Assembly: GCA_003252455.1 (NCBI GenBank)
Contig: QKED01000035.1
Coordinates: forward strand, 1 to 41,228
Length of the DNA stretch: 41,228 bases
From: Gammaproteobacteria bacterium
GTDB lineage: Bacteria; Pseudomonadota; Gammaproteobacteria; Thiohalomonadales; Thiohalomonadaceae
Direction: 5' to 3'
Part shown: piece after piece, positions 25,390-40,075 of the stretch
How positions within the stretch are numbered: the stretch's first letter is position 1
How the letters are laid out: each line of letters begins with the position of its first letter
The notes under the pieces: generated by a model
Seen by the model: only the letters and a program-made list of their open reading frames with translations
What the model was told of the DNA's origin: nothing
Databases searched by the model: none
Position numbers and translations under genes: made by a program

Positions 25390-25434
25390 AGACTTTTTTC
25401 CTACCGATGGGTGGATTGGGGTGGCATTGTGCCG

Positions 25435-25488
25435 AAGTTAGATTTAAGATTAAGAAAAGTTTCTAACTTACAGTAAACCTTGAAACTT
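25435..25488. promoter_or_regulatory. Overlapping inverted repeats in the argE / SPOR lipoprotein spacer
   Basis: AAGTTAGA (25435-25442) pairs with TCTAACTT (25462-25469), while AAGTTTC (25457-25463) pairs with GAAACTT (25482-25488). The two share bases 25462-25463, so only one can form at a time. The region is AT-rich and probably holds the divergent promoters. Confidence 0.4.
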
Positions 25489-25563
25489 CTCTGGATGGTG
25501 CCCGCCCGGGACAGGGAGGACACTGTAGGTACCGGTCAACGATTGATGGGAGAACGACGACTC

Positions 25564-26115
25564 ATGTCTGGAGTTAACAAGTTTATGGCGGGTCGCTTCG
25601 GTAAGAAGATGCTGGCGGTCGCCCTCGGCGCCGTCTTGCTGCCTGGCTGTTCATACATCAAGCTCAAGGGTTCCGACGAGGCGCCGATGGACGAGGATGT
25701 CGCCCTGCGCCCGGCCAGCCTGCCCGAGCCCGAGGCGGTGACCCTGCCCACCCTGCCGAGTCTGCCCGAGCCCGCCCCGGCGATGGAAGAGCCCGTTGCC
25801 CCGGCCCCTGAGAACTACGCCATGCCCCCGGCAGAGCCCGAGGTGATGGTCGCCGAGGCGCCCGCTGCACCGGCGGCAGTCTACAGCCTGCAACTGCTCG
25901 GCACCACCAATATGCTGGCGGCGCAGAAGTTCATCGACGACTACCAGCTGGGTGATCGCGCCTCCATCGGTGCCACCTCACGTCAGGGTAGTGCTTGGTT
26001 CGTGGTGCTCTACGGCGCCTACCAGACCTCCGCCGAGGCCAAGGCCGACATCGCCAAGCTGCCCGCCGCCGTGCGTGCCACCAAGCCCTGGCCGCGTAAG
26101 CTCGATACCCTCTAA
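25564..26115 (+). CDS. Lipoprotein with Pro/Glu-rich linker and SPOR-like domain
   Basis: The 183-residue protein begins at ATG 25564, with GGAG about 11 bp upstream; in-frame ATGs at 25480, 25545 and 25585 are alternatives. It has a lipobox LLPGC (Cys29), a Pro/Glu-rich linker (about 45-110) and a C-terminal SPOR-like domain of about 70 residues (VYSLQLLGTTN... WFVVLYGAYQTSAEAKADIAKLP). SPOR domains bind denuded glycan strands of peptidoglycan, often at the septum. It is probably anchored in the outer membrane and reaches the cell wall. It is monocistronic with a strong terminator. Confidence 0.8.
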   Translation: MSGVNKFMAGRFGKKMLAVALGAVLLPGCSYIKLKGSDEAPMDEDVALRPASLPEPEAVTLPTLPSLPEPAPAMEEPVAPAPENYAMPPAEPEVMVAEAPAAPAAVYSLQLLGTTNMLAAQKFIDDYQLGDRASIGATSRQGSAWFVVLYGAYQTSAEAKADIAKLPAAVRATKPWPRKLDTL

Positions 26116-26208
26116 ACCCCTCTCTTGAGCGAGACGCCGCCCCCACGGGCGGTGTCGCGCGTCACATGCCTGACTCATTGCAGTAGCGGTTGCCACACCG
26201 CACTTCTT

Positions 26209-26243
26209 GCCCCGAGTACCCGACGGTGCTCGGGGCTTTTTTT
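26209..26243 (+). terminator. Rho-independent terminator after the SPOR lipoprotein
   Basis: GCCCCGAGTACC / GGTGCTCGGGGC make a 12-bp stem (one G-T pair) with a CGAC loop, followed by seven T. It is the clearest intrinsic terminator of the window. Confidence 0.92.
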
Positions 26244-26383
26244 GTCTTGCCGAGTGCGCGGCAGCCCCGACATTTTGTCGTCACTGCGTTGGCGGGTAGA
26301 GGGAACGACCTGGCGTGAGCCGACGTGTGCCACTCGCCTGCACATCATGGCGCACAGGGGAACGCCTCTGCGTGTGGATTGAC

Positions 26384-27811
26384 TCAGAAGCTATAGCGTA
26401 GCTCGGCGAAGAGTCGGTCATTGTCGCCGATGGCGCTGAAGGGGAGGTTGTGCCCCCACTGGTAGTCGACATAGCCGAGGCTCAGATTGAGGGCATCGGC
26501 CAGGTCGTAGTCCGCACTCAGGCGGGTGAGCCCGCCGCCTTCGAAGTGGGCACCACTGGCCAGGCGTAACAGGGTGAGTTCGAGGCGGTCGTGGAGCAGC
26601 TTGTAACTGGCGCGTAGGGCGTGCTGGTAGTTGTCGCGTGCAATGCCGACCGTAGCGTGGTGCGTCGAGTAGTCGTCCCAGCGACGCACCAGGCTCTCCC
26701 AGGAGAGGGTGGTGTCGCGCAGGCCCGCGTACTCCACGCCGAGCAAGAGGCCGCTCTGCGCCTGTGCGGCGCCGATCGCCGTGAGGCGTAGGCCGTCGAA
26801 GCGGGCCAGCTCGCCTTTGAGTAGCCAACTGCCGACGGCCCAGTTGGCGGCGACACCGCTCATCTGGATGCGGGCGTGCTGACGCACGGCGCCTGTGGCG
26901 GTGGGCTGTAGGTAGGCGTTGTCGTCGTAGACCCAGGCGCGATAGAGGGCCAGGTCCCACCCGCTGAAGATGCCGTTGAGGGCGAGGGCATATTCACTGT
27001 GGTCGCCGCCGCTGCTCGGTCTCACCTCGTGCGGGGCTGGGCTGGCGAGGGGGTAGAAGTCGGAGCCGAAGGCGGGCTCCTTGTTGAAGCGCACCTCGGG
27101 GATGGCGATGGCGCTGAACGACCAGTCACCGCGATAGGCATCGAGACGGGCCATGCCGGTGGGTAGGCGCAGGTCTTCGATGTCGACCATGCCGATCTCG
27201 CGCTGGTCCATGGGGTTGAGTAGGTCGGTGAGGCGCAGGTTGTCGGATTTACCCCAGACGACGATCTGCCGACCGAGCTTGAGGTCCAGTGCGGCTCCCA
27301 GGCGACCGCGTAACCACGCCTCGTGCAGCTCGCTCTCATCCTCCTGGCTGTCGAGCAGGGGCTGAGGGTAGTCGCTACGCCCATTGATGCCATAGGCGAA
27401 ATCGTGCAGCACTCGCCCACCGAGGCGCACGGCCCAACGGTCATTCAGGTCGTAGTCGAACTGCAGGTTGACCTTGGCGCGCAGGCGCGAGAGGCCGCGC
27501 TGGTCGACCCCGCCACTGGGGGGGGCGTCGTGCGCGGTATTCCACGCGGCGGAGAGGCCGAGGTCGCCGTCGATGGCGTAGGGGCCGCTGCTGCGCGGGT
27601 CGTGGGCCGGGAGCGGCAGGCCGTTGGGGGGGAGCCCGTTGTCCGCGGGCTGGTGCATCAGGTCTGGGGCATCGAAGCCGTCGATCACCGACTCCAACGA
27701 GCTGGGGGCGTCATCGAAACCCTGCATCAGCTCGCCGAGGCTCGGTTCACCCTCGGCCTGGAGTGTGGTGGCGACGGCGAGCAGCAGGAGGGGGTAGTGG
27801 GGGCGCATCAC
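26384..27811 (-). CDS. DUF1302-type outer-membrane beta-barrel protein
   Basis: The 475-residue protein has a signal peptide (ending near LQAEG) and alternating strands through to a terminal ELRYSF, a typical outer-membrane assembly signal ending in Phe. LKLGRQIVVWGKSDNLRLTDLLNPMD is the hallmark of DUF1302 family barrels, which recur with LolA-like and MMPL proteins. It is the last gene of the tetR operon, 5 bp after the LolA-like gene. It may be the outer-membrane receiver or pore for the substrate moved by the RND transporter. This is inference from context. Confidence 0.78.
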   Translation of the reverse strand: MMRPHYPLLLLAVATTLQAEGEPSLGELMQGFDDAPSSLESVIDGFDAPDLMHQPADNGLPPNGLPLPAHDPRSSGPYAIDGDLGLSAAWNTAHDAPPSGGVDQRGLSRLRAKVNLQFDYDLNDRWAVRLGGRVLHDFAYGINGRSDYPQPLLDSQEDESELHEAWLRGRLGAALDLKLGRQIVVWGKSDNLRLTDLLNPMDQREIGMVDIEDLRLPTGMARLDAYRGDWSFSAIAIPEVRFNKEPAFGSDFYPLASPAPHEVRPSSGGDHSEYALALNGIFSGWDLALYRAWVYDDNAYLQPTATGAVRQHARIQMSGVAANWAVGSWLLKGELARFDGLRLTAIGAAQAQSGLLLGVEYAGLRDTTLSWESLVRRWDDYSTHHATVGIARDNYQHALRASYKLLHDRLELTLLRLASGAHFEGGGLTRLSADYDLADALNLSLGYVDYQWGHNLPFSAIGDNDRLFAELRYSF

Positions 27812-27816
27812 GGTCC

Positions 27817-28611
27817 TCAGAGCCCCATCTCCAGACGACGCACGGTGAAGAGGTCGTCATCCATCGGGTAGTTGTACTGCACATTGTTGAAGTAGAGCTC
27901 GGTCTTGTGCAGTGCAACCTTACCCTGGCGGGTGGTCATCTCCATCTGGCGGATGGTCCAGACCCCGTCGATCAGCTCCAGCTGTTTGACGTCGAAGTAC
28001 TTCAGCTTGCTGCTGTCGGCCACCCAGTGCACGGCGCGGACCACCACGAAATTGTCCTGGCGCACGAAGAGCAGCGACTTGCTGTAGCCGCTCTCGTCGA
28101 TCTCCTCGCGGCTCTTCGGCTCCGCTTGGATGATCCAGACGGCGACGTCGCCCACCTTGTCCTCCTTCACCAGGGTGAAGTCGTAGGCATCCAGATTGCG
28201 CCGCGTCATGTCAGAGTAATTGAAGTCGGAGCCCATGAAGCTGCCGCTCTTATCCGAGCTGGCGATGCGCTTGGATTTGCGCAGCGCGGGGAGGTAGAGC
28301 CACTGGTCGTCGTCCTTGCCCGGGTCGTCGTAGTCGTAGGTGAGGAAGCCGGTCTCCTTCACGTCCGCCGGGGTGAGGAAGAACATGATGAACTGCTTGT
28401 CCTCACCCACGTCGTGGGCGAAGCGGCGGATGGTACGCACGCGGCGCTGCCCCTGTTTGTCGATGAGGTGCATCTCCATGTCGGTGCTCATGCGGTCGCC
28501 GTCGTCGCGGTCGTCGACCGCCTGCATGATCTCGCGCGGGGTCATGGCCAGGGCGGAGGTGCTGGCGGCGAGGAGGGCCAGTGCGGTGAGGAGTCGGCGC
28601 GGGTTGAACAT
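27817..28611 (-). CDS. LolA-like periplasmic (outer-membrane lipoprotein-sorting type) protein
   Basis: The 264-residue protein has a signal peptide (MFNPRRLLTALALLAASTSALA). The mature part matches the LolA-like family found beside MMPL transporters: RREIMQAVDDRDDGD-type start, WLYLPALRKSKRIASSDKSGSFMGSDF, and VWTIRQMEMTTRQG. The fold is a hydrophobic half-barrel that can shield an acyl chain. It lies 23 bp after the RND gene and 5 bp before DUF1302, and probably ferries a lipid-like substrate across the periplasm. It is not LolA itself, which is shorter and linked to lolCDE. Confidence 0.82.
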   Translation of the reverse strand: MFNPRRLLTALALLAASTSALAMTPREIMQAVDDRDDGDRMSTDMEMHLIDKQGQRRVRTIRRFAHDVGEDKQFIMFFLTPADVKETGFLTYDYDDPGKDDDQWLYLPALRKSKRIASSDKSGSFMGSDFNYSDMTRRNLDAYDFTLVKEDKVGDVAVWIIQAEPKSREEIDESGYSKSLLFVRQDNFVVVRAVHWVADSSKLKYFDVKQLELIDGVWTIRQMEMTTRQGKVALHKTELYFNNVQYNYPMDDDLFTVRRLEMGL

Positions 28612-28634
28612 CGGGATTCTCCTTGCGTGGGTGA

Positions 28635-31109
28635 TCAGTAGTCGCTGTCGTCGTCGATGAGGTGGCTGCGGTGCAGCTCGGCCATCAGCGCCGGGGCGAG
28701 GAAGAAGTCGGCGAGCAGCGCCATGATGATGGCAAAGCCGGTGAGCAGCCCGAAGTTGACCAGGTTGCTCAGGCTGGCGAAGGCGTAGAGGAAGAAGCCA
28801 CCGGCCAGCACCAGGGTGGTGGTGAACATGGCGCGACCGGTGCTCATCAGGGTCTTGCGCACGGCGTCGAGCACCACCCCGCTGTCGTGGTGGTAGCGCC
28901 GGTAGTTGTGCATGAAGTGGATCGTGTCGTCCACCGCGAGGCCGATAGCGATGGAGCCGATGAGGATGGTGAAGAGGTCGAGCGGTAGACCGAACCAGCC
29001 CATCAGCCCGACGGTGAGCAGGATCGGCGCGATATTGGGGATCATACTCACCAGGCCGATCTTGATGTCGCCGATGAGCAGGATCATCATCAGGGTAATC
29101 ACGGCGGCGGCGATGAGGTAGCTATGGGCCATGCTGATGATGGTGGCGTGCATGGTACGCCCGAGGAGTGCGGCCATGCCGGTGATCTCGATACGCGCCT
29201 GGTCACCGAATTGCGCCTCGAAGATCTGCTGTAGCGTGTCGGTGAATCCACGGTAGAGGGTGGCGTCGACCCAGGGCATCTTCACCGTGAAGCGGGCGGT
29301 CTGGAACTGACTGTCCACGAAGTCACTCATGTCATCGGAGCCGGAGTTCTCGAACAGTAATAGCTCCTGGGCGATGAGCGCGCGGTCGTCAGGGATGGTG
29401 TAGTAGGCATCGTCGTTGTCGTGCAGGGCGCGGTTGGTCTCCTTGAGAATATCCGCCAGGGAGAGGCTCTTGCCGACATACAGTTCGCCCTGCTCGATCG
29501 CCTCCACCTGCGGGCCGAGGCGATCGAGCCCCTGCAGCAGGGCGGGGGCGTAGAGGCCGTTCGGCGTACCGCTGTCAACGAGTACCTCCACCGAGCTGGC
29601 CCCTTTGAGCCGTGCGTTGATGAAGTCGTTGGCGATGCGTGCCGGCTCGGTGAGCGGCAACCACTCGAACGGCTTATGCGAGAACTTCACCTGCAGCGCA
29701 CCGGCCACACCGATGCCCATCAGGATCAGGCTGACGAGGATGATGGTCCGGCTGCGCGTCACCGCCAGTTCGGCGATGCGCGCGAGCAGGGCGTCCATGC
29801 GTTGGTGGCGCTCGGCGTGCACCTCCCCCTGTTTGGCGCGCACGGGGAAGAGGGAGAGCAGCGCCGGGATCAGCACCAGGGTGAAGAGCAGTGAGATGAG
29901 TACCCCCATGGCGGCGGCCTGACCCAGGTCGGCCACCGGTGATACGGCGGCCCCGGCGAAGGAGGCGAGACCAGCGGCGGTGGTGAGTGAAGTCATGACG
30001 ATGGCCAGGCCCGAGTGGCCGAGGGCCGAGACGATCGCCGCGCGCTTGTGGTCGTCGTCCACGTTCTTCTCGCCGCGCTGGGTGGCGAAGTGGCTCTCCT
30101 GCAGCTCACGATAAAAGATCGCCAACAGGTGCACCGAGGCCCCGACGCCCACGGCGAGCAGGAAGGAGGGGAGGATCTGCGTCGGCAGCTTGATCGGGAT
30201 ACCCAGTGCGCCCATCAGACCGAGGGTGGAGACGAGCGAGAGGATCACCGTGAGCATCGGCAGCACCACGCCCGAGACGCGCTTGAACAGCAGCGCCAGC
30301 AGCAGCGAGATGAACAGCAGCGCGGCGAGCATGAACTTGCCCATGTTCTTTTTCATCTCGCGCTTGAGCACGCCGCTGACCACGGGTGAGCCGGCCAGTT
30401 GCACATGGAACTCGGGGCTGTCGAAGCGTGCCGCCACCGCGTAGGCCTTGGCCACCAGCTCGCTGTTCTCTTCGTCGGAGAGGAAGGGGCGGCGTACCTC
30501 CGGGGCTGCATCCTGGGCACCGGGCTCGTCGAAGCCGGCCATGACGTCGACCTCGTCGAGGCCGACGTGGGTGTAGTTGTCGGTCTTCAGCACCAGGGTG
30601 GTGACCTGCCCATCGGCGGAGATGAGCATGTTGCGATAGACCGGATTGGCCATCGCGCGCGCCTTGATCACCGCCAGTTCCGCCGCGCTCTGCGGCCACT
30701 GCTCCAGCAGATCTTCGACCACGAGTTCGCCATCGGCGCCGCGCGTGTTACGTGCATTGACCAAACTGGTGATGTCGTCGAGGTAGGGCACCTCGTCGCG
30801 CAGCGCCTCGTGTAGGGCCTTCAACCGGGTGAGGAAGGGGAGCGAAAAGATCTCTCCACCGCTCACCGTGAGCACCACCATCTCATCGCGCCCGAACACC
30901 TCTCGGAACTGATTGTAACGGATCAGCACCGGGTCACTTGCGTGCAAAAAGCCCTCGGTGGAGGTATCGATGTGCAGGTGGCGCATCTGACTGGCGAGTG
31001 CGCCCACCAGCACGACGACGACGAGCAACACCAGCCAGTGATAGCGGTAGACGACATCACCGAAGCGGCTGAAGCCCTGTTCGATGGAGTGACGGATCCG
31101 TGCGCTCAT
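28635..31109 (-). CDS. MMPL/RND-superfamily transporter
   Basis: The 824-residue protein has two repeats of one helix, a large periplasmic domain and five helices: helix near 24-43, periplasmic part to about 250, helices to about 430; then again from about 455. The DD pair in AIGLAVDDTIHFMHNYRR and the segment AVGVGASVHLLAIFYREL are typical of proton-driven MMPL/HAE3-like carriers of hydrophobic or lipid substrates. AAGGA precedes the ATG. It follows tetR by 15 bp and carries no adaptor (MFP) or TolC partner nearby; the LolA-like and DUF1302 proteins take those positions. Confidence 0.88.
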   Translation of the reverse strand: MSARIRHSIEQGFSRFGDVVYRYHWLVLLVVVVLVGALASQMRHLHIDTSTEGFLHASDPVLIRYNQFREVFGRDEMVVLTVSGGEIFSLPFLTRLKALHEALRDEVPYLDDITSLVNARNTRGADGELVVEDLLEQWPQSAAELAVIKARAMANPVYRNMLISADGQVTTLVLKTDNYTHVGLDEVDVMAGFDEPGAQDAAPEVRRPFLSDEENSELVAKAYAVAARFDSPEFHVQLAGSPVVSGVLKREMKKNMGKFMLAALLFISLLLALLFKRVSGVVLPMLTVILSLVSTLGLMGALGIPIKLPTQILPSFLLAVGVGASVHLLAIFYRELQESHFATQRGEKNVDDDHKRAAIVSALGHSGLAIVMTSLTTAAGLASFAGAAVSPVADLGQAAAMGVLISLLFTLVLIPALLSLFPVRAKQGEVHAERHQRMDALLARIAELAVTRSRTIILVSLILMGIGVAGALQVKFSHKPFEWLPLTEPARIANDFINARLKGASSVEVLVDSGTPNGLYAPALLQGLDRLGPQVEAIEQGELYVGKSLSLADILKETNRALHDNDDAYYTIPDDRALIAQELLLFENSGSDDMSDFVDSQFQTARFTVKMPWVDATLYRGFTDTLQQIFEAQFGDQARIEITGMAALLGRTMHATIISMAHSYLIAAAVITLMMILLIGDIKIGLVSMIPNIAPILLTVGLMGWFGLPLDLFTILIGSIAIGLAVDDTIHFMHNYRRYHHDSGVVLDAVRKTLMSTGRAMFTTTLVLAGGFFLYAFASLSNLVNFGLLTGFAIIMALLADFFLAPALMAELHRSHLIDDDSDY

Positions 31110-31124
31110 GGGGGGTCCTTGGGG

Positions 31125-31736
31125 TTAGGGGCGCAGGGCGCCGAGGATGTAGTCGTACATCATGCCGGCGGCCTGTTCCAGGGTGATGAAGTGTGCCGCC
31201 GAGACCCCCTGTGGGTGGCGTGCGGCGACACGCTCGCGGATCGGCGCGTTGGCCGCATAGAGGTTGAGCCCCCCGACGATCATCATGTGGATGACGAAGG
31301 GGTTGACCGGGCGAAACTCGCCGCTCGCGGCCCCGGCTTCGAGGATTTGACGCAGCAGGCCCACCAGCTTGCCCATGTGATCGAGGGCGTGGTCGGGGAT
31401 GCCGCTGCCGCCATCCGCCACCTCGCGCAGCAGGAGTGGGGCGGCACAGCCGAGTGATGCGGCCACCGCACCGATAAAGGCACGTAGCTGCGCCTTGGCG
31501 CCCACGGCGGTGCCGACGGCGGCCTCAGTCTCGCGGATGAGGCCTCCGAGTTCGCGCTCGAAGACCGCCTCGTAGAGAGCCTGTTTGTCGCCGATGCGGT
31601 AGTAGAGGGTCGCCTTGTTGAGGCCGGCGGCGGCGGCGATGGCGTCGACCCTGGCCCCGGCAAGCCCCTTGCGCGCGAACTCCTCGGCGGCGACGGCGAG
31701 GAGTTGATCGTTGTCGGTACGGCTCTCTTGGGACAT
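31125..31736 (-). CDS. TetR/AcrR-family repressor
   Basis: The 203-residue regulator has an N-terminal helix-turn-helix (AEEFARKGLAGARVDAIAAAAGLNKATLYYRIGDKQALYEAVF) and a ligand-binding helical domain. It is the promoter-proximal gene of the RND/LolA/DUF1302 operon, and a clean palindrome abuts its start codon, so it most likely represses its own operon until an inducer binds. The inducer is probably the transported hydrophobic compound or a precursor; that is inference. Confidence 0.88.
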   Translation of the reverse strand: MSQESRTDNDQLLAVAAEEFARKGLAGARVDAIAAAAGLNKATLYYRIGDKQALYEAVFERELGGLIRETEAAVGTAVGAKAQLRAFIGAVAASLGCAAPLLLREVADGGSGIPDHALDHMGKLVGLLRQILEAGAASGEFRPVNPFVIHMMIVGGLNLYAANAPIRERVAARHPQGVSAAHFITLEQAAGMMYDYILGALRP

Positions 31737-31738
31737 TC

Positions 31739-31754
31739 AACTAACCGTTTAGTT
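31739..31754. promoter_or_regulatory. TetR operator palindrome
   Basis: AACTAA-CCGT-TTAGTT is a 6-bp inverted repeat with a 4-bp spacer, and the ACTAAACGGTTAGT form on the coding strand is a classic TetR-type operator. It ends 2 bp before the tetR start codon, leaving no room for a separate ribosome-binding site. Confidence 0.75.
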
Positions 31755-31885
31755 AAAATATTGGGGCACGATAATCCAACGCCCAGCGGGGGTCAATATC
31801 CGGTGCGGGATGGGGGCTTGCCGAGGGGTGAGGATTGTCTCTGTATACCGGTTGTCTGGCTGCAACAAGGTGTTACCGACAACCC

Positions 31886-32842
31886 TCAGTGGTAGTAGCC
31901 GTGCCAGTGATGCCGACGTTGGCGCTCGATGGGGAGCAGTTGTCGATGCAATAGGTGGCCGGTGTGCAGCGGCAGCCGTGGGTGAAACGACTCGACCAGG
32001 GAGAGTAGTCGGTCGATGCGCTCCTGGGTGTGGGGGTGGGTGCGTAGCAGTGAGGGTTGGTCGCTGTGGCGGTCGGGCCAGAGCAGGCGTCTGAGCCAGG
32101 GGCTGCTGCCGTATTCGATGCGTGCGAGGGCGTGGGCCAGACCTTGGGGGTCGCCGGTCAGGCGCACCGCGTCGAGGTCGGCGTCGAACTCACGGGTGCG
32201 CGAGAGGGCGAGTTGCAGGAGGGCGCTCACACTGGGGGCGAAGATGAGGACCAGCAGGCCGAGCCAGGGGGGTGAGCTGTCGATGAAGAGGTAGAGTGGC
32301 AGGGTGAGCAGCAACAGGAGTTGGCCGAAGAGCGAGAGCAGACGGGTGACACGGCTGAGGCTGTCGGCCATGCCCATCACCAGGGTGTCGTGGTTGCGGA
32401 TGTGGCTCACCTCGTGGGCCAGTACCCCGGCCAGCTCGCGGTAGTCGAGGCTGCGCAGTAGACCGTCGCTCACTGCGAGCGCGGCATGTTCGGCACGCCC
32501 GAGGGTGAAGGCGTTACGTACCGGGCTCGGCAGATAGTAGAGGGCGGGTGGGTGCGTGAGCCCCGCGCGTCGGGCCAGCTCGGCGCTCAGTTCGTGGAGT
32601 GCAGGTGCCTCCCACTGGGCCAACGGGCGTGCACCGTACATGCGCATCACCCAGCGTGGCGAGAGACTCGGGGCGAAGAGGATCGGGAGTAGGGCGGGGA
32701 GCAGGAGCAACATCCACCCCTCGCCGCCGAGCAGCCAGCCGGTGAGGGCGAGGAGGAGTCCCATCCCAGCGAGCAGGAGGAGTGTCTGCAGGGTGTTGGC
32801 CAGCTTGTGGCGTACCAGTTGGTGTGGGTCGAGTCGGCTCAT
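31886..32842 (-). CDS. M48-family (HtpX-like) membrane zinc metalloprotease
   Basis: The 318-residue protein has two N-terminal helices (about 18-57), the zinc motif HEVSH (143-147) with catalytic Glu144, two more helices (about 170-215) and the third-ligand segment [10 protein letters not shown]. This layout is that of HtpX, which degrades misfolded membrane proteins, though the sequence is a diverged relative. The C-terminus is His-rich ([12 protein letters not shown]). Its start overlaps the macrodomain stop by 4 bp, so both are made together. Confidence 0.87.
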
Positions 32843-33360
32843 ACCGGGACCTCCTCGTAGCTCGCACCGAAGGCCTCCAGCGTCTGGCGGTAGAGTGCCT
32901 GGTCTTCATCACTGTAGGCGCAGAGGATCAGCCGCTCGAAGTCCGCCTCGGCCTCGACCAGTGCGGCCACGGCAATCTCTGCCGCCGCGCGCTTAGGGAA
33001 GCGGTAGACCCCGGTGCTGATGGCGGGAAAGGCGACATGGCGAAGGCGCTGCGCGCGCGCCAGACGTAGGCTCTCGCGATAGCAAGAGGCGAGGAGGGTG
33101 GCCTCCCCGTGGTCTCCCCCACGCCACACCGGGCCAACGGTGTGGATCACCCAAGGGGCCGGCAGGGCGAACCCGGGGGTGATACACGCGTGGCCCGTCT
33201 CGCAGCCATCTAGGGCGCGACAGGCGTCGAGTAGCGCGGGGCCGGCGGCGCGGTGGATCGCCCCATCCACCCCGCCGCCACCGCGTAGGCTGCGGTTGGC
33301 GGCGTTGACGATGGCGTCCACGGCGAGGCGGGTAATGTCACCTCGATGGAGCTGAATCAT
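32839..33360 (-). CDS. Macrodomain protein, O-acetyl-ADP-ribose deacetylase type
   Basis: The 173-residue single macrodomain shows the ADP-ribose-binding signatures of the YmdB/MacroD class: [30 protein letters not shown] and [13 protein letters not shown]. Such enzymes hydrolyse O-acetyl-ADP-ribose and can remove ADP-ribose from acidic residues. The gene is first of a two-gene minus-strand operon with the M48 protease and diverges from the coiled-coil gene. Confidence 0.9.
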
Positions 33361-33509
33361 CCCTCTACTCCGGAAAATGGCCCTAACAGTGGGTTTAAGA
33401 CCGGTCTCGGCCTTTCACCCAAGTGGTGAATATGTATATGCTAACCGCAGATTTATAGATATGTGAGCGAATCCATATCGTATACACCTCGCACAAGGAG
33501 TATCTCACT

Positions 33510-36409: not shown

Positions 36410-36706
36410 GGCGCTGCGCTCGCTCTTGAGTGGAGTGGGGCGATTGTAAGGTGACGCACACATGCGGGGCAAAAGGTCCGAGGGGGGAGGTTCATCTCCC
36501 CCGGAGGCATGGGTATCATGTGGGCGCAGTCATGGCCAGGTGTCGGCCAGCATCAACAGGGTAGACGCAGACTCATCGACGGGCCGGAGCGCTTGCGCTC
36601 GCGCCCGCTGTTCTCAGGGGGTGTGTGGGTTGGACGCGTGTCGACCCCACACTGAGCACGTCGAGTCTGTGTCGGCCCTGCCCACCACAATTACGAGGAC
36701 AACGAC
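36410..36706. other. Divergent spacer between pspB and the ATPase operon
   Basis: No gene is supported in these 297 bp. Two inverted repeats stand out: GGGGGAG (36483-36489) / CTCCCCC (36496-36502) and GTGTGGG (36623-36629) / CCCACAC (36646-36652). The promoters of both flanking operons should lie here, but no convincing -35/-10 pair was found. Confidence 0.5.
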
Positions 36707-36904
36707 ATGGCGGAGCAGGAGTCACAACCGCAAGAGCACGATTTTCGGGTGCGTAACGCCCTGGGTATCTTTACCGATTATGCCGACCGCGAACGGGCGC
36801 GGCGTGAGAACGCCGACGAGTATTTCGACCCCGCGCTGCACGACGAGGCGGTGGCCCTGGTGACCTCTTGGTTGCGGCACGACGAGGGGGGGGACGTGGC
36901 ATGA
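36707..36904 (+). CDS. Small acidic protein coupled to the Rad50-like ATPase
   Basis: The protein has 65 residues, with no membrane segment or known motif. It is acidic and largely helical (GIFTDYADRERARRENADEYFDPALHDEAVALVTSWLRHD). GAGG lies 8 bp before the ATG. Its stop overlaps the ATPase start (ATGA), so the two are translationally coupled and probably interact. I do not recognise a family. Confidence 0.7.
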   Translation: MAEQESQPQEHDFRVRNALGIFTDYADRERARRENADEYFDPALHDEAVALVTSWLRHDEGGDVA

Positions 36905-39153
36905 TCATCCGCTCGCTCAAGGCGACCAACCTGCTGAAGTATCGCACGCTGGCGTTGAACGACCTCCCCGCGAAGGCGCTCATCGCCATCACCGGGGTCA
37001 ACGAGTCGGGCAAGACCGGCCTGGTCGAGACCATCTGTCTCGCCCTGTTTGGTCGCACCTTCTACCTGGAACCCGATAACCTGACCAAGGGGATCCTCTG
37101 GGGCGAGACCCACGGCGAGGTAGAGATGGTGTTCACCGGCAATACCGGGCGCGACTACCGCATCACCCGAACCATCGATAGCGAGGGGCGCCAGAGCGCC
37201 CGCCTCACCACGGACGGTTCGGACGACGCCCTGGCCAAGGGCCCCAGCGCGGTCCTCGCCCGCGTGGTCGAGCTGGTGGGCTTCGACTACCGCGAGTTCA
37301 TCGAGTCCATCTATCTGGCGCAGAAGGGGACGGTCACCAGCAGCCACCCGAGCGCCGCCACCGCCAGCGCCGTCAGCGGGGTGCAGAAGCTCAACCAGGT
37401 CGAGCGGACCCTGGGCGAGGAGATCCTCACCCTCAAGGCCGCCATCGGCGAACACGAACAGCAGCTCGACGAGCTCCAGGGCCAGTACCGGCGTCTCGCC
37501 TTCGACCCCAATCAACTCCCGAACCTGGAGCAGGAGCAAGAGGCGAGCCGCGCCCTGGCCAGCGAGAGCGCCGACGCGGCCCGGGAGTGGGAGGAGGTGA
37601 TCGCCGAGATCAACCAACACCTGGGCAGCCTGCACGCCCTGCGTGGGCAGCTCGCCGCCCTGAGCGGCGAGAGCCCCGTCGGCGAGTGGCGTGTCGCCCA
37701 CAGTGCCCTCGCCACGACCCTCGACCAACTCGCCGAGAGTCTGCCGGAGGATGAGGAGAGTGCCGAGGGTGAGTCTGCCGCCCGCGTGCTAGAGAGTGCC
37801 CGTGCCACCCAGGCCGAGTTTGACCAGCGCATGGCCGGGCTCGACGCCCTGCTCGCGCTGGTCGACGCGCAGGGGGCCGAGGCCGATGCCGCCCTGGCCG
37901 ATGAGGGCGAGGCGGCCTTGGCGGTGCAGATGGCCGAGCTGCAGGCGGAGCAGCGACGTGCCGGGGCCAGCCGGGGACGTCGTGGCCTGCTCTTCTGGCT
38001 CTGCCTGCCCCCTGCCGCGCTGCTCCTCGGGGCCTGGTACCTCATCGCGCACCTGCCGCAGAGTGCCACCGCCGTGAGCCTGATAGAGATCATCGGCGCT
38101 CGCTTCCCGCAGTGGCAGAGTGTCAGCCACACCCCCTGGCTGCTCTATACCGGTGGTGCGCTCGCCGTGGTGGCCCTGTTCGCCTTCTTCGCCATGCTCG
38201 GTGCTGGCTCCACACGCGGGGGGGCCGAGCGCCGCCTCGCCGCGCTCCAGGGAGAGGCCGCCGATATGCAGGCCTATCGGGAACGGCTGCAGGGCTTTGC
38301 CGCGTTGAGCGTGCCGCAGTTACTCGACACCCTGGAGGCGCGCCAGCAGGCGGCGCTCAGTGCGCAGCTCGCCACCTTCCGCGAGGGCGCCGGGGCGCTG
38401 TTCGTCGACGTAGAGGCCTTGGCCGCGTGGCACGCGCAGAGTGATCAGCAGATGGGACTCACCGAGGATGCCGTGCGCGCCGAGCTGGAGGCGTGTCACC
38501 AGGAGCTGACCACGCAACAGGGTGAACACGACCGTTATCAGAGCCGGATCGGTGAGCTGGAGGGGGCGATCTTGCGCGAGCAGGAGCGGGTGCGCCAGGC
38601 CCAAGAGTTGAACCTGGTGCGTGCCGATATGGAGGCCAACCGTGACCAGACCCAGCGCCAGATCCGCGTGCGAGAAGAGGCCAGCCTACTGTTGCGCGGT
38701 GCCTCACGTCAGGCGATGGAGCAGTTCAACCGCGACCTGAAGATCTTCATGAGCCGGGTGATGCCCCAGCTGACCGAGGATCGCTACCACTATCTGATCC
38801 TCGACCCCTCGCTCGATGTGGAGGTCTTCTCCCGCGACAAGCACGATTTCATCGGTTGGGACGAGATCTCCACCGGCACCCAACAGCAGATCCTCCTGGC
38901 CCTGCGACTGGCCCTCTCCGCCGCCCTCGCCGAGGGGGCCGCCGGCGGGCAGGGGCAGACCATCATGCTCGATGAACCGTTCGCCTTCTACGATGCCAAG
39001 CGCATCGCCGATGCACTCAACGCCCTGCCCAAGGTGAGCGAGCGCTTGACCCAGATTTGGGTCATCTCCCAGGAGTTCGCCGACATGCGTCCGTTCGACC
39101 TTCATATTGACTGCCAGCGCGGTCAGGACGTCCTGGTGGTGAACGGTGGCTGA
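36901..39153 (+). CDS. Rad50/SbcC-YhaN-like ATPase with central transmembrane hairpin
   Basis: The 750-residue protein starts at ATG 36901 (MIIRSLKATNLLKYRTLAL). Walker A GVNESGKT (32-39), the Q-loop (IYLAQKGT, Gln141), an ABC signature-like STGTQQQ (657-663), Walker B IMLDEP (688-693) and the D-loop (FYDAKRI) form a complete head of the Rad50/SbcC/RecN type, split by coiled coils. In place of a zinc hook lie two membrane helices (about 362-385 and 411-434) joined by a 25-residue loop. No CxxC hook and no Mre11/SbcD nuclease gene are present. B. subtilis YhaN-type ATPases are the nearest layout I know. It overlaps MoxR by 8 bp. The function is unknown; a membrane-tethered machine acting on DNA or protein is possible. 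Confidence 0.8.
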   Translation: MIIRSLKATNLLKYRTLALNDLPAKALIAITGVNESGKTGLVETICLALFGRTFYLEPDNLTKGILWGETHGEVEMVFTGNTGRDYRITRTIDSEGRQSARLTTDGSDDALAKGPSAVLARVVELVGFDYREFIESIYLAQKGTVTSSHPSAATASAVSGVQKLNQVERTLGEEILTLKAAIGEHEQQLDELQGQYRRLAFDPNQLPNLEQEQEASRALASESADAAREWEEVIAEINQHLGSLHALRGQLAALSGESPVGEWRVAHSALATTLDQLAESLPEDEESAEGESAARVLESARATQAEFDQRMAGLDALLALVDAQGAEADAALADEGEAALAVQMAELQAEQRRAGASRGRRGLLFWLCLPPAALLLGAWYLIAHLPQSATAVSLIEIIGARFPQWQSVSHTPWLLYTGGALAVVALFAFFAMLGAGSTRGGAERRLAALQGEAADMQAYRERLQGFAALSVPQLLDTLEARQQAALSAQLATFREGAGALFVDVEALAAWHAQSDQQMGLTEDAVRAELEACHQELTTQQGEHDRYQSRIGELEGAILREQERVRQAQELNLVRADMEANRDQTQRQIRVREEASLLLRGASRQAMEQFNRDLKIFMSRVMPQLTEDRYHYLILDPSLDVEVFSRDKHDFIGWDEISTGTQQQILLALRLALSAALAEGAAGGQGQTIMLDEPFAFYDAKRIADALNALPKVSERLTQIWVISQEFADMRPFDLHIDCQRGQDVLVVNGG

Positions 39154-40075
39154 GTCACCCCTCGTTCGCCTGCAGACGGCCCTCGGTGGGGTGATGCAGG
39201 GGCAGTCACGGGCCATCCGTCTGCTCCTCGCCGCCCTGGTGGCAGGGGGGCATGTGCTCTTGGAGGACTACCCCGGTACCGGCAAGACCACCCTGGCCAA
39301 GGCCCTCGCCGCTGCGCTGCGTGCGCAGTTTCGGCGCATCCAGTTCACCCCCGACCTGCTCCCCTCCGATATTCTGGGGGTGAGCGTGTTTCGCCCCGAG
39401 GAGGGGCGTTTCAGCTTTCAACCGGGGCCGATCTTCGCCCAGGTCGTGCTCGCCGACGAGATCAACCGCGCCTCGCCGCGCACCCAGTCGGCGCTCTTGG
39501 AGGCGATGGGTGAAGGGCAGGTGAGCGTGGATGGGGCGCTGCGCCCGCTCGATGAGCTGTTTTTCGTCATCGCCACGCAGAACCCCATCGAGTTCCACGG
39601 TACCTACCCGCTGCCCGAGGCGCAGCTCGATCGCTTCGCCCTACGCTTCTCCCTCGGCTATATCGGCCTCGACGAGGAGCTGGCACTGCTCGATGCGCAG
39701 CGTCTGGAGCACCCGCTGGCCAGGCTCTCGGCGGTGGTCGATGTCGAAGAGCTGTTGACACTGCGCCGGGCGGCACGCGAGGTGGTGGTCGCGCCGGAGC
39801 TGCGACGCTACATGGTGCAAGTGGTGGCCGCCACCCGCGAGCACGAGGGGGTCGCCCTCGGCGCCAGTCCGCGCGCCTCGTTGGCGTGGATGAAGTGTGC
39901 CCAGGCCCTGGCCCTGGTCGATGGGCTCGACCTGGTCACCCCCGAGCAGCTGCGCGAGCTGGCGGTGCCGGTGTTGGCCCATCGCCTGGTGCTCGACGCC
40001 CAGAGTCGCTTTGCCGGACGCAATGCCGAGCGCCTGGTGGAGGGATTGCTGGATCAGACCCCGGTCCCGGTGTGA
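39146..40075 (+). CDS. MoxR-family AAA+ ATPase
   Basis: The 309-residue ATPase starts at GTG 39146, inside the end of the ATPase gene. Walker A PGTGKT (43-48), Walker B VLADEINRA (Asp104-Glu105), sensor 1 ATQNP and the MoxR-typical LPEAQLDRF are clear. MoxR proteins act as chaperones for assembling cofactor- or metal-containing complexes and VWA/DUF58 partners. The following DUF58 gene overlaps its stop (GTGA), the standard MoxR-DUF58 pairing. Confidence 0.93.
   Translation: MAESPLVRLQTALGGVMQGQSRAIRLLLAALVAGGHVLLEDYPGTGKTTLAKALAAALRAQFRRIQFTPDLLPSDILGVSVFRPEEGRFSFQPGPIFAQVVLADEINRASPRTQSALLEAMGEGQVSVDGALRPLDELFFVIATQNPIEFHGTYPLPEAQLDRFALRFSLGYIGLDEELALLDAQRLEHPLARLSAVVDVEELLTLRRAAREVVVAPELRRYMVQVVAATREHEGVALGASPRASLAWMKCAQALALVDGLDLVTPEQLRELAVPVLAHRLVLDAQSRFAGRNAERLVEGLLDQTPVPV

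Follow-up and report, generated by a model that had tools for sequence, protein, structure and literature searches.

A recurring three-layer envelope module of MMPL permease, LolA_like carrier and DUF1302 barrel, with its own TetR regulator, in a member of the Thiohalomonadaceae

Described systems and the operon under study

A four-gene operon in a gammaproteobacterium of the family Thiohalomonadaceae bears on the unsettled problem of tunnel-free passage of hydrophobic molecules through the periplasm; the operon, encoding a TetR-family regulator, an MMPL permease, a LolA_like periplasmic carrier and a DUF1302 outer-membrane barrel, lies on contig QKED01000035.1 of GenBank assembly GCA_003252455.1, of which positions 1 to 41,228, the whole stretch analysed, are called the window. 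A described counterpart, AmeABCD of Castellaniella defragrans, comprises a DUF1302 barrel, a DUF1329 protein of the LolA superfamily, a YCF48-type protein and an HAE3 permease of the RND (resistance-nodulation-division) type; in the published account, deletion of ameABCD lowered tolerance of monoterpene hydrocarbons and increased the accumulation of Nile Red (PMC6394551). The PG1175-1181 region of Porphyromonas gingivalis, induced 13 to 136 times under iron starvation, is described as containing TetR, MMPL, a lipoprotein-sorting protein, a hypothetical protein and ATP-binding proteins of the ABC (ATP-binding cassette) type (PMC10434189); the clustering of the first four in PG1178-PG1181 resembles the window operon, from which the added ABC proteins and the iron-starvation response distinguish it. 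HpnN and the MmpL transporters belong to the same permease superfamily as the window MMPL protein; HpnN is said to work without periplasmic or outer-membrane partners (PMC6394551), and MmpL4 and MmpL5, which pair with MmpS partners (PMC12803245), act in the mycobacterial envelope, unlike the window permease. The LolCDE-LolA-LolB pathway offers a LolA-fold shuttle fed by a MacB/FtsX-type permease, an arrangement comparable to another gene set of the host genome (see below); its cargo is lipoprotein, and the engine in the window is an RND permease. MacB itself works with MacA and TolC.

The operon shares with AmeABCD an RND permease at the inner membrane, a LolA-superfamily protein in the periplasm and a DUF1302 barrel at the outer membrane. 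An AmeABCD-type arrangement was recognised, from Pfam matches and position, in two loci examined here (L187 and L191), and 8 of 10 AmeA-type regions picked by hand contain an MMPL-type RND permease. The order at L187 and L191 is barrel, carrier, YCF48 protein and RND, as against TetR, RND, LolA_like and barrel in the window; the YCF48 protein (AmeC) is present in both of these Pfam-scanned loci, and no such gene stands beside the window operon. The published description further gives AmeB as a 451-aa DUF1329 protein, AmeC as an extra YCF48-type component and the setting as a monoterpene island (PMC6394551). Since gene order, the missing YCF48 protein, the carrier family and the tail of the barrel all differ, the window module is a sister type of AmeABCD, not a member or an orthologue. 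The initial annotation had suggested a distinct tripartite path: distinctness holds for order, carrier family, barrel tail and the lack of AmeC, and has to be qualified for the logic and content that AmeABCD and PG1178-1181 share as precedents. The literature search found no paper on DUF1302, LolA and MMPL proteins together.

The features of the operon, in the direction of transcription, are:

31739-31754, minus strand: palindrome AACTAA-ACGG-TTAGTT, probable TetR operator, 2 bp before the tetR ATG
31736-31125, minus strand: tetR, TetR-family regulator and first gene of the operon (PF00440, TetR_N, 42.5 bits)
31109-28635, minus strand: MMPL/HAE3-like RND permease, 824 aa (PF03176, 100.9 bits)
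28611-27817, minus strand: LolA_like periplasmic carrier, 264 aa (PF17131, 185.3 bits)
27811 or, more likely, 27808 to 26384, minus strand: DUF1302 outer-membrane barrel (PF06980, 109.7 bits, cut-off 23.2)
27593-27748, minus strand: N-terminus of the barrel (residues 21-72), an acidic tail that is disordered in the model and carries two LxxhhxGFD copies

The intergenic gaps are 15, 23 and 5 bp, the last becoming 8 bp with the ATG at 27808, which is the more likely barrel start because GAGG stands directly 5' of it; families and coordinates thus agree with the four-gene operon (gaps of 5-23 bp) initially annotated. No HlyD adaptor or OEP/TolC-family protein was reported among the 30 window proteins scanned with Pfam, in line with the earlier remark that a classical adaptor and TolC are missing; the HlyD-type adaptor and TolC-type factor that mark the locus of a classical tripartite HAE1 pump were thus not found, and the barrel is porin-like.

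Recurrence of the module across genomes

Scanning one genome per species for the MMPL protein yielded 294 relatives, and the analysis was continued with the best 80 loci; nearly all of these are from metagenome-assembled genomes, and by their record names they represent Gamma-, Alpha- and Betaproteobacteria, Thermodesulfobacteriota, Nitrospinota, Nitrospirota, Myxococcota, Campylobacterota, Calditrichota, Spirochaetota and others. Counting only loci that extend far enough, a LolA_like gene adjoins MMPL in 55 of 68 (900 bp or more downstream), the barrel is present in 45 of 57 (2500 bp or more downstream of MMPL) and TetR lies directly 5' of MMPL in 37 of 71 (800 bp or more upstream). The LolA, barrel and TetR profiles behind these counts were built from matches in the same loci that were later scanned; of 85 loci scanned before any profile was built, plain phmmer searches with the window proteins detected the carrier in 63, the barrel in 54 and the regulator in 36. 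Because it recurs across phyla, the gene arrangement is not a product of chance. At one locus (L096, 396-8915), an MMPL-LolA_like pair on the plus strand faces a TetR-MMPL-LolA_like-barrel set on the minus strand, with one barrel gene detected between them. In Magnetovibrio blakemorei MV-1, a cultured and non-pathogenic bacterium, the genes for TetR, MMPL, LolA_like and barrel stand one after another (L029).

The association was also recovered from the carrier side. A reverse search with LolA_like in the host genome and 38 relatives gave a match in 20 of the 39 genomes, and 30 short loci were examined: 14 contain MMPL, LolA_like and barrel, three MMPL and LolA_like, three LolA_like and barrel, six LolA_like without MMPL or barrel (one of them with TetR), and four none of the four models. 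Longer stretches of 5.6 to 11 kb at 18 places, picked by hand and mostly drawn from the 30 reverse loci, hold MMPL in ten cases, not always adjacent; six lack it but match the ABC ATPase or the MacB-type permease encoded on a host contig, C77, described below, and two have neither engine. In two of the six C77-like places (L185 and L186) the carrier is seen only by the reverse LolA_like search, not by the profile.

The partners also diverge together. Distances among MMPL, LolA_like and barrel are correlated with rho of 0.65 to 0.67 (43 sets; 0 of 500 permutations as high), and those involving TetR with rho of 0.32 to 0.49 (28 sets; 0 or 1 of 500 permutations); since common descent alone yields part of such a correlation, it supports interaction and does not prove it. 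Median identity to the window protein is highest for LolA_like, at 56%; MMPL follows with 49%, the barrel with 40% and TetR with 31%. The alignments comprised 48 of 58 usable references plus the window for LolA_like, 31 of 85 references for MMPL and 19 of 40 for TetR; for the barrel, they comprised the window and, from 55 barrel open reading frames (ORFs), all 46 references that lie on the plus strand and reach 85% coverage. In a tree of 83 permeases (of 86 rows, kept by length), the window protein falls within a set of 25 rows with support of 98; LolA_like adjoins in 24 of these, the remaining one lying at a contig end. Parts for each envelope layer, as first noted in the window, therefore form a recurring unit by forward and reverse co-occurrence and correlated divergence, and the co-occurrence survey that could have spoken against the initial annotation bore it out. 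The window operon is a real module that is widespread, spans three envelope layers and brings its own regulator. A match at E below 1e-100 was found in 4 of 20 genomes from the host's family, so this module subtype is accessory. When flanking ORFs of 150 aa or more were grouped into clusters across the 80 loci, the commonest cluster occurred at 7 of them, with neither distance nor strand constant; the neighbours hence give no clue to the substrate, and the lack of recurring flanking genes is compatible with a stand-alone unit.

Permease and carrier

The 824-aa permease contains two MMPL stretches (Pfam PF03176), and its top-scoring NCBIfam model is TIGR00921 (HAE3), at 208.5 bits and thus under the cut-off of 351.9. 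H327, D727 and H731 are invariant in all 32 permease rows; from RND topology, H327 is presumably located in transmembrane segment 4 (TM4) and D727 and H731 in TM10. The duplicated MMPL architecture and the conserved charged residues assigned to TM4 and TM10 are those expected of HAE3, and the three residues resemble a proton relay, compatible with proton coupling. In a profile search its best solved relatives were MmpL4, MmpL5 and HpnN.

The carrier begins with a signal-peptide-like stretch without a lipobox, as read from the sequence. It matches PF17131 with 185.3 bits against a gathering score of 30, and PF07044 (DUF1329) with 27.9 bits, slightly above the cut-off of 23.1. Its AlphaFold2 model (predicted local distance difference test, pLDDT, 91.7) is one compact LolA fold of about 240 residues, matched by LolA-type proteins along its length; folds of this kind bind lipids. 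The closest solved relative is LolA3 (PGN0947) of P. gingivalis, about 40% identical and also the top structural match (9tp6; Z 31.3, root-mean-square deviation, rmsd, 1.7 over 235 residues); other best matches include 4z48, a DUF1329 protein, and 3bk5. PGN0947 is presumably the lipoprotein-sorting gene of the PG1178-1181 cluster.

The barrel and its acidic tail

The barrel likewise starts with a signal-peptide-like stretch without a lipobox, and its sequence ends in YSF; similar ends are frequent among outer-membrane proteins. Its PF06980 match covers profile positions 79-409 only, and the 30 AmeA-type loci score 492 to 605 bits. The structural model (pLDDT 86.6) shows with confidence a barrel spanning residues 77-474; it has about 18 strands, counted by hand from the strand listing with residues 299-310 taken as a loop hairpin. 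The top VIA-align matches of the model are the BenF/Occ/OprD and AlgE barrels (Z about 22 to 23, rmsd about 3 to 4), and the top Foldseek matches are OmpT/OmpF-type porins; sequence relatives in the PDB were limited to three matches near E = 1, to galectin-9. Residues of about 179-206 (27191-27274), with the pattern GRQ..VWGKSDN...NP.D.RE.G, are among the most conserved stretches of the barrel and lead from strand 5 into a long loop. In the model this loop is possibly folded into the lumen as a plug.

Ahead of the barrel domain the pLDDT is below 50 across residues 6-69. The net charge of this tail is negative in all 47 module barrels (median -13), and the window tail holds two copies of LxxhhxGF[D/E], LGELMQGFD and LESVIDGFD. 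The strict motif occurs in 32 of the 47 barrels, with at least two copies in 15; 48 occurrences fall within residues 23-120 and one in the remainder of the 47 proteins, and shuffled tails (1000 shuffles) gave a mean of 0.08 and a maximum of 2. The pattern was fixed after the tails had been inspected, and the rows are related, so that the counts are not independent. The first 180 residues of the AmeA-type ORFs were without the motif in 30 of 30 cases, which sets them apart from the window barrel; in five of these loci the barrel profile gave no ORF and the longest ORF was used. AmeA-type proteins may simply be without a tail, and in eight that were inspected the barrel-like sequence seemingly starts soon after the signal peptide. 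The tail of the module barrels may serve to dock the carrier or the permease.

TetR and its candidate operator

The stricter form of the palindrome before tetR, TAACYAANNNNTTRGTT, has its sole zero-mismatch match in the host genome at this site. The looser form AAC[CT]N4-8[AG]GTT occurs in 35 of 38 tetR upstream regions, that of the window included, as against a mean of 3.2 and a maximum of 9 in 300 shuffles, and in none of 37 stretches inside MMPL genes; the loci with the motif are related, and the counts are not independent. As the palindrome is conserved 5' of tetR and its strict form is unique in the genome, TetR very probably governs its own operon and little else, which favours the control by TetR that the initial annotation had proposed. 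One-mismatch operator matches in the host genome were about as common as matches to the reversed pattern, and no further regulon targets are claimed.

Other LolA_like sets and exchange of engines

The host genome contains three LolA_like genes above the Pfam cut-off, one of them in the window, and a fourth, weaker match. On contig C16 a LolA_like gene lies between MMPL and a barrel that has no Pfam match and was found by the module barrel profile; this set (L018, 5517-10286) is near a contig end, and a segment of its barrel resembles, by eye, the GRQ..VWG...NPLD loop conserved among module barrels. On contig C77 a LolA_like gene is flanked on one side by a MacB/FtsX permease and the associated ATPase and on the other by a likely barrel (a weak Wzi match below cut-off); downstream of this set (L019, 3450-9136), on the same strand, are a histidine kinase and a LytTR response regulator. 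The C77 set is likely an ABC-driven counterpart of the window module. With MMPL in the window and on C16 and a MacB-type permease on C77, the pair of LolA_like and barrel occurs with two different engines. A review treats the periplasmic domains found in RND and in MacB/FtsX proteins as variations on one architecture (PMC8277102), which renders such a swap plausible.

A broader proposal, distinctly tentative and more likely wrong than right, is a general class of Gram-negative shuttle-relay exporters, in which a LolA-fold carrier and an 18-strand barrel would form an interchangeable outer half, fed either by an RND (MMPL) permease or by a MacB/LolC-type ABC permease, and the repeated tail motif would be the dock for the loaded carrier; if so, the tail motif would serve a moving carrier as an adaptor serves a sealed tunnel. 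Both the tail motif and the swapping of RND for ABC engines appear to be novel, in that the literature searches, none of them aimed at the motif, found no precedent in print.

Proposed function and alternative explanations

The best reading of the operon, favoured here with moderate confidence, is the export of a hydrophobic compound by a relay of the LolA-fold carrier. The operon would be a self-contained, locally regulated export relay in which a molecule is loaded into the groove of the LolA_like protein, the protein traverses the periplasm with its cargo, the acidic tail of the barrel with its repeated LxxhhxGF[D/E] captures the loaded carrier, and the cargo exits via the barrel of about 18 strands or inserts in the outer leaflet. 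Transport would be outward and driven by protons, and TetR would occupy the palindrome before its own gene until it is freed as the compound builds up. The recovery of the module from both the MMPL and the LolA_like side argues for a relay, as does the modelled resemblance of the barrel to substrate channels and to the exporter AlgE. The correlated divergence of the partners, the relay-like residues of the permease, the fold of the carrier, the conserved palindrome and tail motif, and the ameABCD deletion phenotype in the analogous system favour it as well.

Several observations weigh against this reading. The module is not uniform: 13 of the 68 MMPL loci are without an adjoining LolA_like gene, 13 of the 30 short reverse loci show no MMPL, and 34 of 71 loci have no TetR upstream of MMPL; where TetR is missing, 4 of 37 MMPL upstream regions contain the operator-like motif, roughly as few as in shuffles (mean 2.3, maximum 7). 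The strict tail motif is missing in 15 of 47 module barrels, several of which carry variants by eye, such as DDFFEDD or LEGFGDD; and the net charge of the window carrier is -9 against a family median of +1, so that attraction of the carrier to the acidic tail by charge is not general. PF17131 is a broad family with matches in 6 of 14 control genomes, archaea included, and by itself is therefore little informative. As to the analogues, AmeABCD is a sister type, and the iron-starvation induction of PG1175-1181 is not obviously a solvent response; functional data for this module subtype were not found in the literature searched.

The same components could serve envelope biogenesis: a lipid made by the cell itself, whether hopanoid-like, glycolipid or pigment, would be relayed from inner to outer membrane, and TetR would sense this lipid or its precursor. 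The best solved relatives of the permease are mycobacterial siderophore exporters (MmpL4 and MmpL5) and the hopanoid-linked HpnN, and a flexirubin operon of Flavobacterium is reported to hold LolA- and LolB-like proteins (PMC11885536); yet no synthesis genes accompany the module, since no flanking family, in clusters that are partly annotated, occurs in more than 7 of 80 loci, and carriage in the host's family is patchy, which together leave this explanation rather unlikely. That no catabolic gene family was seen recurring around the 80 loci speaks against import, in which a hydrophobic substrate would enter by the barrel, the carrier would cross the periplasm and the permease would run in the uptake direction; this direction is considered improbable. 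It would suit the OprD/Occ/BenF substrate-specific channels among the best structural matches of the barrel. Such channels serve uptake. A Thalassolituus protein with MMPL and LolA-like domains and an adjoining porin, induced by C28 alkane, has been interpreted as alkane uptake in the published work (PMC6304351); the characterised analogue AmeABCD, however, is described as an exporter (PMC6394551).

That the LolA_like protein is the adaptor of a classical sealed pump, in a stable complex of permease and barrel as the authors of AmeABCD proposed for AmeB and AmeC (PMC6394551), would accord with that proposal and with the tight operon; the modelled carrier is, however, a single compact LolA fold and the modelled barrel is porin-like without a TolC tunnel, so that this version too is given little probability. 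An accessory LolA in lipoprotein sorting, as family name and fold would imply, is very improbable: LolA3 of P. gingivalis, the closest solved relative, is reported to bind LolB weakly and to be without the LolA arginine (PMC13103446), the carrier gene adjoins MMPL or MacB-type permeases, and deletion of lolA3 in Flavobacterium johnsoniae, whose product may or may not belong to this family, is reported to have left gliding and secretion unaffected (PMC11885536). The module combines, in a few genes that recur together, a dedicated regulator and its predicted operator, a carrier whose relative has been solved and a short motif in the barrel tail, and it points to a use for the poorly understood families DUF1302 and LolA_like; the inducer of TetR is a possible route to the substrate.

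Surroundings of the operon

A hairpin at 26209-26236 was ruled out as the terminator of the operon: its T run is on the plus strand, and it therefore suits the convergent SPOR gene; no intrinsic terminator was identified for the operon. A sigma-70 scan gave two sites against 1.0 expected, and no promoter is claimed; an Rfam scan of 25400-33400 gave nothing at gathering scores. Elsewhere in the window, a 943-aa TIR-domain protein with weak AAA and TPR matches and a defence-like make-up is encoded at the window edge (5-2833), and at 36462-40075 an AAA_23 (Rad50/SbcC-like) protein is preceded by a 133-aa ORF without a Pfam match and followed by a MoxR-type ATPase.

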